Below are positions 6,285 through 56,580 of a DNA stretch of 64,000 nucleotides, one piece after another. Below the pieces are notes generated by a model. It did not search any database. It saw only the letters and a program-made list of their open reading frames with translations, and was not told the origin of the DNA. A program made the translations under genes and the position numbers. Every line of letters starts with the position of its first letter. The stretch's first letter is position 1. The stretch is from positions 1,240,001 through 1,304,000 of the forward strand of contig NZ_AP018738.1 in the NCBI RefSeq assembly GCF_000974685.2, in the 5' to 3' direction. The stretch comes from Ferriphaselus amnicola (GTDB lineage: Bacteria > Pseudomonadota > Gammaproteobacteria > Burkholderiales > Gallionellaceae).

Positions 6285-6651
6285 GGGGGCGACTTGGCTT
6301 CGACGTGGGTTGCAAAGCAGCGTAGGGCATACCGAGGACCCGCAACCTCGTAAATCAGCTGGAAAACAAATAGTCGCAAACGACGAAACTTACGCACTGG
6401 CCGCTTAAGGCCTGCCCTCACACCCCGTTGTCCATGGAGGGGCTCGATACCGCAAGGTTGAGATGAGTGAGGTCATTACATGGAATCGTGCGGCGTAGGG
6501 TTACTTTACGCAGCACTAAACGCAAGGTAACTCGTCCCGTACCAGCCTGCCGATTGGCGTGTCCGGGCCTAAAACAAATAATCAGGCTAAGTATGTAGAA
6601 CTATCTGTAGAGGACTCGCGGACGGGGGTTCAATTCCCCCCGCCTCCACCA
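6285..6651 (+). ncRNA. ssrA: transfer-messenger RNA (tmRNA)
   Basis: tmRNA rescues stalled ribosomes and tags the unfinished peptide for proteolysis with SmpB. The 5' end GGGGGCGACTTGGCTTCGAC pairs with the 3' acceptor CGCCTCC followed by ACCA. The tag frame at 6376-6408 reads ANDETYALAA and ends in TAA. The T-arm GGACGGGGGTTCAATTCC is at 6621 and following. The length of 367 bases is normal. A TACAAT -10 box lies at 6259-6264. The gene is intact even though a prophage abuts its 3' end, so the element must restore the 3' sequence on insertion. Confidence 0.97.
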
Positions 6652-28248: not shown

Positions 28249-29541
28249 ATGAGCAAACAACTACGAGCGTTACAGGCACGCAAGAGTGCGCTGGTCAAAG
28301 AGGCCCGCGCATTGACTGATCTGGCGGCAACCGAATCCCGCGACATGACCGATGCCGAGGTCACCGCCTTCGATGCGTTACGCGGAAAAATCGATGCGGC
28401 CTCGGCATCCATCGACCGCGAAGCTGCCCTGATCGCCGAAGAAGCACGGTTGTCGGCAAGCAACGCCCTCGGGGTGGTGGTCACCGATAACCGCGAACTG
28501 GACCCCAAGCGCGGCTTCGCCAGCATTGGCGAATTCATGCAGGCAGTGTATCTGTCGCAGAAACCCGGCAAGTCGATGGATGAACGCCTGTTCATAGGTG
28601 CTGCAGCACCGACCAGCTTTGGTAACGAGAGTGCCGGTCAGGATGGTGGTTTCTTGGTGCCGCCCGATTTCTCCAAGGAAATTTTCCGGCTGAGTCTGGG
28701 CGAGGATTCGCTGATGCCGCTGACCGACAACGTCGAGATCACGGCAAACAGCATGGCCTTCCCCAAGGATGAAACCACGCCATGGGGTACCAACGGCATT
28801 CGTGCCTACTGGCAAGGCGAAGCAGCGGCGGCCAATGCCACCAAACCGGTGATGGGTCTGTCCACCTTGCGGCTCAAAAAGCTGATGGCACTGGTGCCGA
28901 CCACCGACGAGTTGCTGGACGATGCCAGTGCCCTGACCAGCTACCTGCCGGACAAGGTCGCCACCTCGATCCGCTGGAAGACCAACGAATCCATCCTGTT
29001 CGGTGCGGGTAACGGCATCCCCATCGGCTGCATGAACGCCGGTGCCGTGGTGACGGTCGCGAAGGAAACCGGTCAGACCACACAAACACTGGTGCCGCAG
29101 AATCTGGCCAAGATGATCGCGCGCCTGCCACCCGGCTCGTTCGGCAACGCGGTGTGGATCATCAACAACGATGTGCTGCCCGCGCTGTTCACGCTGTCGC
29201 TTGGCAACTACCCGATCTACCTGCCCAACGGACTGACGGTCGGCGGTATCCAGGTCTCACCCTACGGCACCTTGCTGGGTCGTCCGGTGATCGTGTCGCA
29301 GCACGCCAACACCTTCTCGTCGCAGGGTGACGTGATGCTGGTAGACCTGTCGTACTACCAGACCATCACCAAGGCCGGTGGCTTGCAGACGGCGACCTCG
29401 ATGCATCTGTATTTCGATGCCGATCTGACCGCATTTCGCACCACCTTCCGCATGGATGGACAGTCGAAGATCGCCAGCGCGATCGATCCTGCCAAGGGCA
29501 GCAGCAAGCTGTCGCCATTCATCCAGCTGGCCGCACGCTAA
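28249..29541 (+). CDS. major capsid protein (HK97 fold)
   Basis: The 430-residue protein has an N-terminal coiled-coil delta domain (LRALQARKSALVKEARALTDLAATESRDMTDAEVTAFDALRGKIDAASASIDREAAL), likely removed by the protease, then the HK97 core from about residue 100 (QDGGFLVPPDFSKEIFRLSLGEDSLMPLTDNV, and GRPVIVSQHANTFSSQGDVMLVDLSYYQT). The start at 28249 follows GGAGA and avoids reading through the hairpins. It is likely the most abundant late protein. Confidence 0.95.
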   Translation: MSKQLRALQARKSALVKEARALTDLAATESRDMTDAEVTAFDALRGKIDAASASIDREAALIAEEARLSASNALGVVVTDNRELDPKRGFASIGEFMQAVYLSQKPGKSMDERLFIGAAAPTSFGNESAGQDGGFLVPPDFSKEIFRLSLGEDSLMPLTDNVEITANSMAFPKDETTPWGTNGIRAYWQGEAAAANATKPVMGLSTLRLKKLMALVPTTDELLDDASALTSYLPDKVATSIRWKTNESILFGAGNGIPIGCMNAGAVVTVAKETGQTTQTLVPQNLAKMIARLPPGSFGNAVWIINNDVLPALFTLSLGNYPIYLPNGLTVGGIQVSPYGTLLGRPVIVSQHANTFSSQGDVMLVDLSYYQTITKAGGLQTATSMHLYFDADLTAFRTTFRMDGQSKIASAIDPAKGSSKLSPFIQLAAR

Positions 29542-29588
29542 CCAGCGACTTGGCACGCGTCGTTTGAGTGCTTAGTCGATTGGCTATG
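29542..29588. repeat. hairpin repeat core, copy C (behind the capsid gene)
   Basis: CCAGCGACTTGG ... GTGCTTAGTCGATTGGCTA starts directly after the capsid stop codon. Outer arms CGACT (29546-29550) and AGTCG (29574-29578) pair perfectly, and the inner GCAC and GTGC pair as well. The string GCTTAGTCGATTG is shared with two copies inside the cobD-cobQ gene (48291-48384 and 49115-49206). Confidence 0.7.
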
Positions 29589-47046: not shown

Positions 47047-47562
47047 TCAGCTTCCTTTCACCACCAGCGGCAAACCTGCCACCGTCAAAATTACACGATT
47101 ACACAGCGCACCCAGTTGTTGATGCAGCCGCCCCATCTCGTCGCAATAGCGGCGCGACAATTCGCCCAGAGGCACAATGCCCATATTGGTTTCGTTGCTC
47201 ACCAGAATAATCTGCCCCGGCAAGCGCGGCAGCACGTCCAGCAACGCGGCGACTTCGCGCCGCAACATCGTTTCATCAGCGTCGCACAATAGTTGCGTGA
47301 GCCACATCGTCAGACAATCCACCAGCACACAGCGCCCAGCCTGCGCTTCGCGTTGCAATACCTCCGCCAAATTGGGCCCCGCCTCGACCAACAACCACGC
47401 GGCAGGACGACGGGCTTGATGATGCGCGATGCGCTGCTGCATTTCTTCGTCGCGCACGTGCGCGGTGGCGATGTAAACAACCGGCACGCCCGCATCCAAA
47501 GCGTGCTGTTCCGCCAGACGGCTTTTGCCAGAGCGCACGCCGCCCAAAATCAATTCCCGCAT
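47047..47562 (-). CDS. cobU: adenosylcobinamide kinase / guanylyltransferase
   Basis: CobU phosphorylates adenosylcobinamide and adds GMP. The 171-residue protein begins [22 protein letters not shown] (P-loop) and has [10 protein letters not shown] with the guanylylated histidine, followed by [14 protein letters not shown] and [13 protein letters not shown]. Its product is the substrate for CobS. It overlaps the cobD-cobQ gene by 13 bases. Confidence 0.95.
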
Positions 47563-50183
47563 CGGTCGCCCTCCAGTCCAAACAATGCCGCCAACTTTTT
47601 CCGATCGAGATGCTGCTCCACAGCATCGGCCAGCCGCTCAATGTCTGCCTCGCGGCGGGCGGCGTAGTCAGGCGTGCTCACCGTGTGCAAACCCGCCCAG
47701 CGCAACAGCGCATCCAGCGCGGCGGTCGATTCAAATAGACCGTGCAGATAGGTCGCGAGAATTTTCCCGTCGTCCGAGATGGCGCCATCCTCGCCGTGCG
47801 CCAGGCGCAATGCAGGTTTGGCCAATGCCGCACCGCTGGAGACTCCGGCGTGAATCTCGTATCCAGACACGGGAGCGTCCTCCAGTAGCAGTGTGCCGCC
47901 TACATTGCGCAACTGTTTTTGCGCCGCCAGCGTGGTTTGCAGTTTCAGCAGGCCCAGCCCTGGACTGCTGCCCGCCTCACCTTCGATGGCCAGTGGGTCG
48001 TGGATGAATTCACCCAGCATCTGCAAGCCACCACATATACCGATCAGCTTTCCGCCATAGCGCAGATGCTGGTTGATCGCCCACTCCCAACCGGCGCGAC
48101 GCAAACTTTGAAGGTCGCTACGCACCGCCTTGCTGCCGGGCAGAATGATTAAATCGGCGAGCGGTAACGGTGCAGTGATGGGAGCAAAAATCAACTCGAC
48201 TTGCGGATGCAAGCGCAGCGGATCGAAATCGGTGTGATTGCTGATGTGGGGGAGGACGGGGACGACGATGCGTAGCTTTGGCGTGGCGCGCCCCCTCACC
48301 CCCGCCCCATCTGATGGAACTACCGAGCAATCGACTAAGCCAGCAAGCTGGCGAGTCGCTGCTTGTCCCAAAGGGCGAGGGGAGTTAATCGGTAGCGCGT
48401 CTTCCGCTTCCAGATGCAGGCCATGCAGATACGGCAGCACGCCCAATACCGGCTTGCCGGTGCGTTGCTCCAGCCAGTCCAGACCGTCTTGCAGCAGTGC
48501 GATGTCGCCGCGAAAGCGGTTAATGACGAAACCAACTACACGCGCCTGCTCGGTTTCGGACAGCAAGGCCAGTGTACCCACCAGATGCGCGAACACGCCG
48601 CCGCGATCTATGTCAGCAATCAAAACAACCGGGCAATCGACCGCTTCGGCGAATCCCATGTTGGCAATATCACCGGCACGCAGATTGATTTCTGCCGGGC
48701 TGCCCGCGCCTTCCACCACCACCGCCTGGTATTGCGCCGCCAGCCGTTGATGCGATTGCATCACTGCCGCACGCGCGGTGTTTTTGTACGCGTGATATTC
48801 CAGCGCCTCCATGTTACCGATGGCATGACCGTGAATGATGACCTGCGCGCCGGTGTCGCTATTGGGTTTGAGCAGCACGGGATTCATGTCGGTGTGTGGC
48901 GCAAGGTTTGCCGCCATTGCCTGCACTGCCTGCGCCCGCCCGATCTCGCCGCCATCGCGGGTAACCGCACTGTTCAACGCCATGTTCTGCGGCTTGAAGG
49001 GCGCAACGCGCACACCTTGCCTTACCAGCCAACGACACAGCGCAGCAACCAAGGTACTTTTTCCGGCATCGGACGTGGTGCCTTGCACCATCACGGTACG
49101 CGCCACCGTCTTTACCCCCTCCCCCATCGGGAGATAACCAGCAACCTGCCCGCGTGCGGGCTTAGTCGATTGGCTAGTTGTTTCATCAGGGCTGGGGTGA
49201 GGGGGGGCTCGTTGAGTTAACGCCGCCTCCAGTCTCCGCCATTGCGCTTCATCGCGCGGCAAGCCAAAGCGCAGACTGGCAGGCTCTACAAACAAACGCG
49301 TCAGTACGCCTTGCTGCGCCAGTTGCCGGTGAATGCTCGCGGCATCGGCGCGCCGCACCCAGGCGAACAACGCCGTACTGCCACTCACCTGCAAGTCCTG
49401 TTGTTCCAGCAAGGCGCACAGGCGCGCGGCTGCCCTCGGCAAGGTGTTGCGCGTAGCGGTTTGCCAGACCGTATCACGCAAGGCGCGGCTGACGACGAAG
49501 CGCGACGGCGCACTAATCGGCCACGGACCGAGCAGTTCACGTAAGCGGAGTAGGATGGTTTGCTCGGCTAAAACGAAGCCGACGCGCGCGCCCGCCAAAC
49601 CGAAAAATTTTCCGATGGAGCGCAACACGACCAAGCCTGTACGCGGACAATCACCCGCTAGGCTGTGCTCTGGCGTGGCATCCATAAAGGCTTCATCCAC
49701 GATAAGCGTGCCGCCACGCGAAGCGAGTGTTTCATGCAAAGCCAACACGTCTGCACGACTGAAAAGTTGCCCCGTGGGATTGTTGGGATTGACGATAACG
49801 ACGATGTTAATGGCCTCATCGAGCGGCAATATCTGCTCGGCGGGCAGGGCTAAAACCTCATGCCCCGCTTGCTGCCAAGCGTGTGTATGTTCGGCATAAC
49901 TGGGAGTAAGCAGTGCGACACGGCTGGGCGAAAACAAGCGCGGCAAGGCTTGAATGGCGGCTTGCGAACCGGCCACCGCGAGTAGTGAGGCACAGCCGTA
50001 ATACGCACTCGCGGCAGCGGGTAAATCGTCTTCGTCCTGCGGCAAGGTTTGCCACACCTGCTGCGGCACGACGGGAACCAGCCAGCCGTTCGGATTGATG
50101 CCCGTGGATAAATCCAGCCAGTGTTTTTCGGCGATGCCGAAGTGCTGTGCGGCTGCGCGTACTCTGCCACCGTGCTCAAGCAT
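47550..50183 (-). CDS. cobQ: fused threonine-phosphate decarboxylase and cobyric acid synthase
   Basis: One frame of 877 residues joins two enzymes. Residues 1-325 are CobD/CobC-type: [21 protein letters not shown] and the pyridoxal lysine in [17 protein letters not shown] near 191; it makes aminopropanol phosphate. Residues 360-877 are CobQ: P-loop [20 protein letters not shown], catalytic Cys in [13 protein letters not shown] and His in TYLHGLFES; it amidates cobyrinic acid diamide. A linker at 324-355 and an extra segment at about 598-629 are encoded by two copies of a hairpin repeat. The domains are normally separate genes. Confidence 0.93.
48291..48384. repeat. hairpin repeat copy A, inside the CobQ domain
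   Basis: Starting CCCCCTCACCCCCGCCCC and ending GGGCGAGGGGAG, it contains GCCAG-CAAG-CTGGC (48339-48352) flanked by CGACT (48332-48336) and AGTCG (48354-48358). It aligns along its whole length with copy B at 49115-49206 in the opposite orientation. It adds about 31 in-frame residues ([19 protein letters not shown]...) where CobQ proteins I recall have a short loop. Confidence 0.82.
49115..49206. repeat. hairpin repeat copy B, in the CobD-CobQ linker
   Basis: The unit runs from CCCCCTCCCCCATCGGGAG to GCTGGGGTGAGGGGGGG. Its core is GCCCG-CGTG-CGGGC (49148-49161) followed by TTAGTCGATTGGCT. The inner stem differs from copy A at positions on both strands (CAG/CTG against CCG/CGG), so pairing is kept. 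It encodes most of the linker [20 protein letters not shown] of the fused enzyme. Confidence 0.82.
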
Positions 50184-56179: not shown

Positions 56180-56229
56180 ACGCTGCAAAATGAATCACCA
56201 CGAAGCCGCCACCCGCGCCCTCTTCTGCT

Positions 56230-56405
56230 CGTATGCAATCAGGCCGGTATCCGGGCTCACAAGTTTTGATCTGTCGCCTTCCCATGATTGCTCACAGTGG
56301 CATGATGACAAACCCACACTTATTTACCGTTGCGGGGGCAGCACAGGTATTTCACCTGTTTCCCGTTTAACTTACCTGCAAGCAGGAAAGCACCTCAAAG
56401 CGGCG
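56230..56405 (-). promoter_or_regulatory. cobalamin riboswitch
   Basis: Read on the minus strand: the P3-P6 core contains CCCCCGCAACGGTAA, GCCACTG and GGGAAGGCGACAG, and the B12 box AGCCCGGATACCGGCC is at 56242-56257. These are the defining parts of a cobalamin aptamer. It lies about 150 bases before btuB and should repress uptake and the following synthesis genes when adenosylcobalamin is ample. Confidence 0.95.
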
Positions 56406-56580
56406 CGCATCCTAGCACAGAAGCCGAGTAACCACCAAACAGGCTATTGACAATACTTTTATGCTGGTTGGTGGTAAAAGTGGCGTAATACCATAACGCA
56501 TGACAGTTAGTTTGCAGCTCATATGATGTAACCGACGTTCTACAAAGAAGAGTTGCCGATAATATTGCCAAGCCAAAAAA

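Follow-up and report, generated by a model that had tools for sequence, protein, structure and literature searches.

Nested palindromic repeats within a CobC-CobQ open reading frame of Ferriphaselus amnicola and their relatives in the Gallionellaceae

The CobC-CobQ locus and its two composite palindromes

The DNA analysed here (the window) is a stretch of 64,000 nucleotides from Ferriphaselus amnicola, a member of the Gallionellaceae, corresponding to positions 1,240,001 to 1,304,000 of contig NZ_AP018738.1. It contains an open reading frame (ORF) of 877 amino acids (aa) that comprises a CobC/CobD-type threonine-phosphate decarboxylase part (aa 4-322, TIGR01140) and a cobyric acid synthase CobQ part (aa 363-867, NF001989), and that includes two copies, A and B, of a palindromic element. 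The features of the locus, in window coordinates, are as follows.

47550..50183, minus strand: CobC-CobQ ORF, 877 aa (ORF list; TIGR01140 and NF001989; Pfam)
49218..50174, minus strand: CobC-type domain, aa 4-322 (TIGR01140)
48411..49094, minus strand: CbiA domain of CobQ, aa 364-591, upstream of insert A (Pfam PF01656)
47724..48272, minus strand: GATase_3 domain of CobQ, aa 638-820, downstream of insert A (Pfam PF07685)
48293..48384, plus strand: copy A, composite palindrome in reverse orientation relative to the gene (covariance model, 91.6 bits)
48313..48366, plus strand: 54-bp core of copy A (core scan)
49116..49203, minus strand: copy B, composite palindrome in the same orientation as the gene (covariance model, 107.2 bits)
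49134..49187, minus strand: 54-bp core of copy B (core scan)

The bit scores should be read in the knowledge that A and B are two of the three sequences from which the covariance model was built, the third being a copy at 778853 in the GluQ-RS gene from which a nested extra hairpin was removed.

An earlier, sequence-only reading of the window had described one hairpin repeat that was inserted twice in this gene, the copies aligning over about 90 bases in opposite orientations. The alignment is borne out by a BLAST search of the whole single-contig genome (2,717,229 bp), in which a 171-base query containing A matched B with an E value of 1.9e-11. As that reading had also stated, both copies are free of stop codons in the frame of the gene and account for about 30 residues each, aa 600-631 in the case of A and aa 327-356 in the case of B. 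It had placed one copy in a domain linker and the other in a CobQ loop. These placements have to be corrected: A lies in the linker between the CbiA and GATase_3 domains of CobQ, and B lies not within one enzyme but between CobC and CobQ, where relatives have two separate genes that adjoin each other. An AlphaFold model of the CobQ part, made from the single sequence, was uninformative (mean predicted local distance difference test score, pLDDT, 36.4), and the linker placement of A is therefore based on the Pfam boundaries and on the gaps in aligned homologues.

The repeat is real, but its description as a hairpin is incomplete, as each copy combines two palindromes in one. The outer element is a GC-rich repetitive extragenic palindrome (REP) of the CCCTC type, CCCTCACCCCnnCCC ... 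GGGnGAGGGG, and inserted inside it is the inner element, a hairpin core of 54 bp, GATGGAACTACTAGCCATTCGACTAAGCCCGCAAGCGGGCAAGTCGCTGGTTAT (GATGG...GGTTAT). The length of the core is a multiple of three, and three of its six reading frames are open. Further hairpins can be nested in the loop of the core. The paired differences between the inner stems are as reported previously (GCCAGC/GCTGGC in A, GCCCGC/GCGGGC in B), and the claim that base pairing is conserved agrees with compensated variation in the family. Among 42 aligned matches, 38 of them distinct, 94.6% of the cells were paired and 13 pairs had changed on both sides, a result not reached in any of 500 shuffles, although it leans toward the structure because the alignment was fitted to that structure. 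The folding energy of the DNA was unusual for A (z -3.16) and not for B (z -1.10).

A covariance search, which the earlier reading had proposed as a check, revealed additional copies in the host genome at 1451425 (E 1.2e-9) and 1452064 (E 3.3e-4), which lie about 640 bp apart, followed by four weaker matches ranking below these two. In the family, the composite model matched 94 of 120 genomes at E <= 0.001, the weakest of which could be bare REPs, and the copy numbers obtained are lower bounds because at most 36 candidates were scored per genome. The outer REP is also common on its own, an exact pattern for it being present in 56 of the 120 genomes. The core pattern was found in at least 119 stretches of named genomes; 102 of those listed are assigned to Gallionella-related genera, Gallionellaceae, Gallionellales or Nitrosomonadales, and 17 carry wider or different taxonomic labels. 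When genomes from across the order were sampled, allowing up to two mismatches, the core pattern occurred in 10 of 13 genomes of the family versus 12 of 386 outside it.

In-frame copies and recurrent landing sites

We surveyed 243 loci, which contained 141 distinct core copies; these loci were chosen for the presence of the core, the REP or CobQ and are hence not a random sample. Reading frames could be analysed for 118 core copies, the other 23 being too near an end. A stop-free frame extending at least 80 aa on each side was present in 39 of the 118 copies, A and B among them, and absent in 79. When the two flanks shared a frame, the insert was usually open in that frame and seldom closed in it by a stop (38 versus 6 copies with flanks of 80 aa, 36 versus 4 with 100 aa, and 29 versus 0 with 150 aa). 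Outside the window, the core was in frame in 37 ORFs, 33 of which belong to a Pfam family, and in 26, as judged by eye from the coordinates, the insert is either covered by the Pfam matches or has matches to its left and right. These 26 include MutL, two UvrD helicases, PriA, ValRS, CysS, MoeA, two NifN-type proteins, M3 peptidases and helicases that we take to be HrpA-like. In the genome of F. amnicola itself, in-frame palindromes were present in the genes for a YbbP-like permease, GluQ-RS, NifN, RecJ, CysS and a CusA/CzcA transporter. In comparisons with solved homologues, aa 134-216 of GluQ-RS remained unaligned to 1nzj and aa 225-284 of RecJ to 8y30, and NifN showed a gap of 16 aa relative to 3pdi.

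One might argue that the inserts are selected protein features, that is, a functional linker peptide duplicated within the enzyme, given that both copies in the window are found at linkers of one gene and have about the same length of some 30 residues. We regard this as extremely improbable because different genes read the core in either orientation and in any of three frames, the changes in its stem are compensatory, and two thirds of the analysed copies (the 79 mentioned above) lie outside an 80-aa open frame. Only slightly less improbable is that the hairpins are RNA elements that regulate or terminate transcription of the cob operon. Their location within an operon-like gene cluster would suit such a role, but no Rfam family reached its gathering score at the positions of A and B, and the same elements are present in unrelated genes throughout the family.

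Some positions were occupied repeatedly. For CobQ, 59 relatives of the family were searched with the protein, and 14 loci were aligned together with 7 relatives at the level of the order. The linker that carries A in the window contained a REP or a composite in 8 of the 14 family relatives and in none of the 7 order-level relatives; the frame remained open and, by eye, these inserts occur in both orientations. In the 13 relatives lacking a REP, the linker measured 54-72 bp in 12 and 126 bp in one (L058). The residues contributed by the repeat are absent from these homologues too, as expected from the earlier reading. The loop of CysS that follows the sequence RLYTAL is another such position, at which 9 of the 27 loci from the family have a REP-type motif.

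The position of B is different in that it involves two genes. In 15 relatives with both genes on one strand, inspection showed that the stop codon of cobC overlaps the apparent start codon of cobQ, as ATGA in 12 cases and as GTGA in 3, from which it follows that cobQ is in a different frame from cobC in these relatives. In the window, B starts directly after the codon that precedes the cobC stop of the relatives, and the position of the ancestral cobQ ATG reads ACG (by eye against L049). The insertion thus removed the overlap and joined two frames, and B is a candidate example of how a palindrome can link adjacent genes for two enzymes. With the overlap between stop and start gone, the ORFs now read through, and the product would be either a fused protein, or CobC plus a CobQ that restarts at a downstream GTG or ATG behind the GGAGG of the REP. 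On the one hand, GGGGGAGGGGG of the REP is located shortly before a GTG in the CobQ frame, and relatives have cobC and cobQ as two genes, the stop codon of one overlapping the start codon of the other. It could therefore be that two separate proteins have been kept, CobC being extended by the element and CobQ restarting at the GTG or ATG just after it, an explanation to which we assign a substantial chance, somewhat below even. On the other hand, no stop codon interrupts the frame on its way from CobC into CobQ, and the former start codon is no longer an ATG. At the corresponding junction of L042 there is a different palindrome (GTAGGAGCGAGCCCTGCTCGCGA), at the spot that is occupied by B in the window.

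Host repeats of the core and genes beside the outer REP

The core is not confined to the CCCTC-type REP. An arm of this type was located within 22 nt upstream of 69 of the 141 core copies, and many of the remaining copies were found in other host repeats, namely CGTCATT^CCCGCG, GAGCCT^GTCGAAG, AGGCT^CAGG, CTCCT^CGCAATG and TTCGCT^GCGCGGC, in which the caret marks the insertion point; AGGCT^CAGG is perhaps the opposite strand of GAGCCT^GTCGAAG. Thus, with the CCCTC REP included, the core occupies at least five types of host repeat, several of which are visibly palindromic. Among the 138 core copies with full flanks, the base preceding the insert was a T in 137. When the flanks of the core were joined, the resulting 18-mer was found core-free elsewhere for 106 of the 138 copies, as compared with 235 of 1380 random sites. 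A stem of at least five pairs enclosing the insertion point was about as common at random sites (959 of 1379) as at real ones (104 of 138), and for this reason we rely on the empty-site test; folding energy did separate them, a minimum free energy <= -20 being obtained for 34 of 138 insertion points versus 85 of 1379 random ones. The clearest case is nifN, in which F. amnicola has a bare REP and three loci of relatives have a core-filled REP at the same position of the gene. The gap between filled and empty REP is exactly 54 columns and, at this single locus, there is no target duplication apart from a single ambiguous base. This provides an orthologous position at which a site with the core can be matched to one without it.

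Variant cores and tandem cores of about 60 bp (for instance TAGCCATTCCACTAAG...CAAGTGGCTGGTTAT) were observed at L157, L127 and L238, indicating that there are several core subfamilies.

A second association concerns genes for DUF559 (PF04480) proteins, for which the nearest solved chain is 3hrl, an 'Endonuclease-Like Protein'. We analysed 30 chosen genomes of the family, of which 21 were taken mostly because they carry the elements, the other 9 being genomes of genus g9 that lack a match to the composite model. DUF559 was present in 25 of the 30 (51 matches), namely in 20 of the 21 and in 5 of the 9, two of the latter being weak. Of the 28 DUF559 loci that could be aligned, 14 have a REP motif on each side at a distance of no more than 150 nt, versus 4 of 2804 ORFs of at least 100 aa and 1 of 4720 random windows, and 22 have one on at least one side, versus 135 of 2804 ORFs and 171 of 4720 windows. 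Further controls gave low values, with REP motifs on both sides of 2 of 358 ORFs in CysS loci and, for gene-matched controls, on either side in 0 of 20 loci with a Y1 transposase gene (Y1_Tnp) and 2 of 28 CysS loci. The score for flanking inverted repeats reached or exceeded the 99th percentile of random windows in 24 of 28 DUF559 loci, including L309, the single locus of F. amnicola. The arrangement in which a DUF559 gene is placed between inverted copies of the same REP was found in part of the loci and is not universal. Entire cassettes may also reside within genes. In a MetRS ORF (L322:1111-3318), an in-frame DUF559 flanked by REP-type peptides lies between the anticodon-binding and the C-terminal tRNA_bind domains, and the HrpA-like helicase ORFs of L077 and L082 have DUF559, REP and core together, each in frame, between their DEAD and Helicase_C domains.

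Outside the family, we examined 19 of the 33 records of a plasmid collection that have a DUF559 match. Nine of the 19 scored at least 20 for flanking inverted repeats, the same-locus 99th percentile being 17, and these nine come from Deinococcus, Sinorhizobium, Azospirillum and Pseudanabaena. Several of the plasmid flanks are themselves hairpins of the CCCTCTCCC/GGGAGAGGG type, and a Neisseria plasmid locus has direct repeats. No literature on DUF559 in this role was found among open-licence papers, within the best-ranked part of a large list of results.

The sequence-only reading had missed the nested structure, the fact that relatives repeatedly have insertions in the same loop, the junction of genes at B and the position of DUF559 genes between outer palindromes. 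We propose, with a probability of about 0.8, that A and B are tolerated insertions of a small mobile palindrome, in which the outer REP is probably moved by DUF559 and the core would be a second mobile palindrome. Many conserved genes of the family contain these parts in frame, and the inserted stretches are lacking in homologues. The outer REP would be non-autonomous, and the DUF559 endonuclease-like protein is probably the factor that mobilises it, by analogy with the REP-associated tyrosine transposases (RAYTs), whose genes lie between inverted REPs. The core would be a separate mobile palindrome that enters other repeats after a T, without target duplication, and selection would retain those copies that have an open frame and are located in linkers or loops. 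If the link between DUF559 and inverted REPs is causal, it provides a candidate mobiliser for the CCCTC-type REP and a role for a protein family of unknown function.

Several observations weigh against this proposal. Firstly, the link between DUF559 and the REP is one of position. The 28 DUF559 loci come from 30 chosen genomes, 21 of which were chosen for the elements, and G056 has the composite (11 matches) without a PF04480 match. Among the 19 plasmid loci, only 6 pass a stricter cross-locus control (99th percentile 28), 9 reach a score of at most 11 for flanking repeats, whether inverted or direct, and several are closely related to each other. Secondly, a search with separated left and right halves of the core, in the loci collected at that time, revealed no gene with the core at its ends; it yielded nested hairpins, variant cores and lone halves. 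The arms of the outer REP also occur in the DUF559 cassettes. The core does not end in inverted repeats, and the search brought up no autonomous element for it. No core-free counterpart was detected for 32 of the 138 core sites, and the cores of L030 and L128 sit in no recognised repeat. Thirdly, 14 copies were flagged as possible gene disruptions, having long flanking frames with no open frame spanning them. Of the 37 non-window ORFs, 4 have no Pfam match (L161, L163, L169, L226) and 7 have a one-sided or unclear one (L068, L075, L085, L125, L127, L131, L168), so that some inserts, for example those of L125 and L168, may precede the true start. CysS lacks only about 5 residues at the site when compared with the solved 1li5; at the same CysS loop, a REP-type motif is also present in 1 of 3 loci outside the family, and inserts of other or unclear origin are found there in L280, L283 and L299. 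Finally, a reversed control pattern matched in 11 genomes of the order-wide sample, so that most of the core matches outside the family are at chance level; the multi-copy genomes G180 (8 copies), G441 (3) and G482 (3) may be real.

A different mobiliser also has to be considered. The palindromes might be moved by a Y1 tyrosine transposase of the RAYT or IS200-IS605 type, as in the case of GTAG REPs, the association with DUF559 being incidental. PF01797 is present in 10 of 12 relatives, including the same-genus G001 and G002, and many of the proteins are RAYT-like in size; moreover, the clean insertion of the 54-bp core without duplication resembles single-strand insertion 3' of a short target, and half-motifs of a short REP are present in 4 of the 30 Y1_Tnp loci of relatives (L244, L257, L259 and L265; about 115 nt beyond the ORF in L257). 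We nevertheless consider this explanation unlikely. The genome of F. amnicola has three Y1_Tnp genes, the loci of which (3.4 kb each) contain neither the core nor the CCCTC motif, and two of these loci also have what we read as a TnpB-like ORF. Among the 30 loci of relatives, no core adjoins the Y1_Tnp gene, one locus (L244) having a core half about 1.1 kb away, and the 150 nt on either side of the match are free of REP motifs in all 20 loci with full flanks. The GTAG tag is likewise absent, the core stem being preceded by CTAC, CAAC, CCAC or CGAC and the outer REP ending in CCCTC/GAGGG. The PF01797 searches of the own genome and 12 relatives and the scans of the flanks thus lend no support to a RAYT as the mobiliser, despite the half-motifs in the four loci.

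The proposal that DUF559 moves the outer REP can be extended. It is conceivable, although we would not give it even odds, that REP-DUF559-REP constitutes an unrecognised class of mobile elements found across phyla, in which a small endonuclease-like protein takes the place of RAYT, solo REPs spread into tolerant loops would serve as landing pads for a frame-preserving hairpin of 54 bp that enters many kinds of repeat, and whole cassettes could settle in frame in genes such as those of MetRS and the HrpA-like helicases.

Two DUF559 loci have other features. In L313 (1231-1866), DUF559 is fused in frame, via a REP-type stretch, to an Sdh5 (SdhE) domain, and in L346, on a plasmid of Synechocystis sp. 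B12, DUF559 adjoins the PglX gene of a BREX system and has no flanking inverted repeats.

Relation to known elements

The sequence-only reading had likened the repeat to the Rickettsia palindromic elements (RPEs). According to the sections of PMC2229807 that we drew on, RPEs occur in intergenic DNA and also, in frame, within conserved genes, to which they add tens of residues. The likeness holds as to the way the elements work, since here too palindromes are in frame in conserved genes and are also found elsewhere (39 and 79 of the 118 copies, respectively). RPEs are 105-146 bp in the same sections, whereas the elements described here are composites of two palindromes, 88-92 bp in size, in a betaproteobacterial family, and the CGTC end of RPE-4 and RPE-6 was not seen on inspection of the copies of the core and the outer arms, one host repeat, CGTCATTCCCGCG, starting with CGTC. 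This comparison is one of descriptions.

Another parallel is offered by the GTAG/CGTC REPs. The relevant part of PMC3733652 reports that in several genera such REPs and REP dimers inside ORFs encode 20-30 residues, many of them in genes for DNA synthesis and repair, that in one case a REP is located at about the same site in relatives, and that some REP families are found inside other palindromes; neither Gallionella nor Sideroxydans is mentioned in the text of that source as far as it was available. The family described here differs in that host repeats of five or more types contain a single core, both tags are missing from the outer REP, and the adjoining gene encodes DUF559 and not a RAYT. 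In the account of RAYTs that we consulted (PMC2817692, in part), their genes are flanked by inverted REPs and solo REPs are found elsewhere. Here, likewise, the gene of a small enzyme of a DNA-cutting type lies between inverted REPs, with solo REPs elsewhere, but the enzyme is endonuclease-like and not a Y1 tyrosine transposase, and no RAYT flanked by inverted REP copies was present in the 3 loci of the own genome or in the 30 of relatives.

Insertion sequences (IS) that target REPs, such as IS621, ISRm22 and ISPpu9, are described in the portions used of PMC1525189 and PMC8450116, ISRm22 being inserted at the axis of the palindrome. They share with the core the entry of mobile DNA into REPs, but they have their own transposase, whereas the 54-bp core encodes none. 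The target site duplication of miniature inverted-repeat transposable elements was not seen at nifN, the sole locus compared. The elements work like RPEs and GTAG/CGTC REPs, but the tag, a RAYT between inverted REPs and, at nifN, the target duplication were not found. In-frame palindromes themselves were already known elsewhere. As far as the open-licence literature was searched, what is new is the element family, the presence of one core in several host repeats, the orthologous pair of empty and filled sites, the cobC-cobQ junction and the association with DUF559. In-frame insertion of palindromes, best known from the obligate intracellular Rickettsia, is thereby extended to an environmental family and to ordinary genes such as those of NifN, MutL, ValRS and CysS, and the spread of coding palindromes without destruction of the gene becomes testable at named sites.

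Elsewhere in the window, a divergent core-like match (29539-29586, locus L035, E 1.36) is located just past a long ORF that presumably encodes an HK97-type phage capsid protein, which suggests a prophage region with an old copy of the core. The Rfam matches in the window include a tmRNA gene (6285-6651, plus strand) and a cobalamin riboswitch (56225-56412, minus strand).

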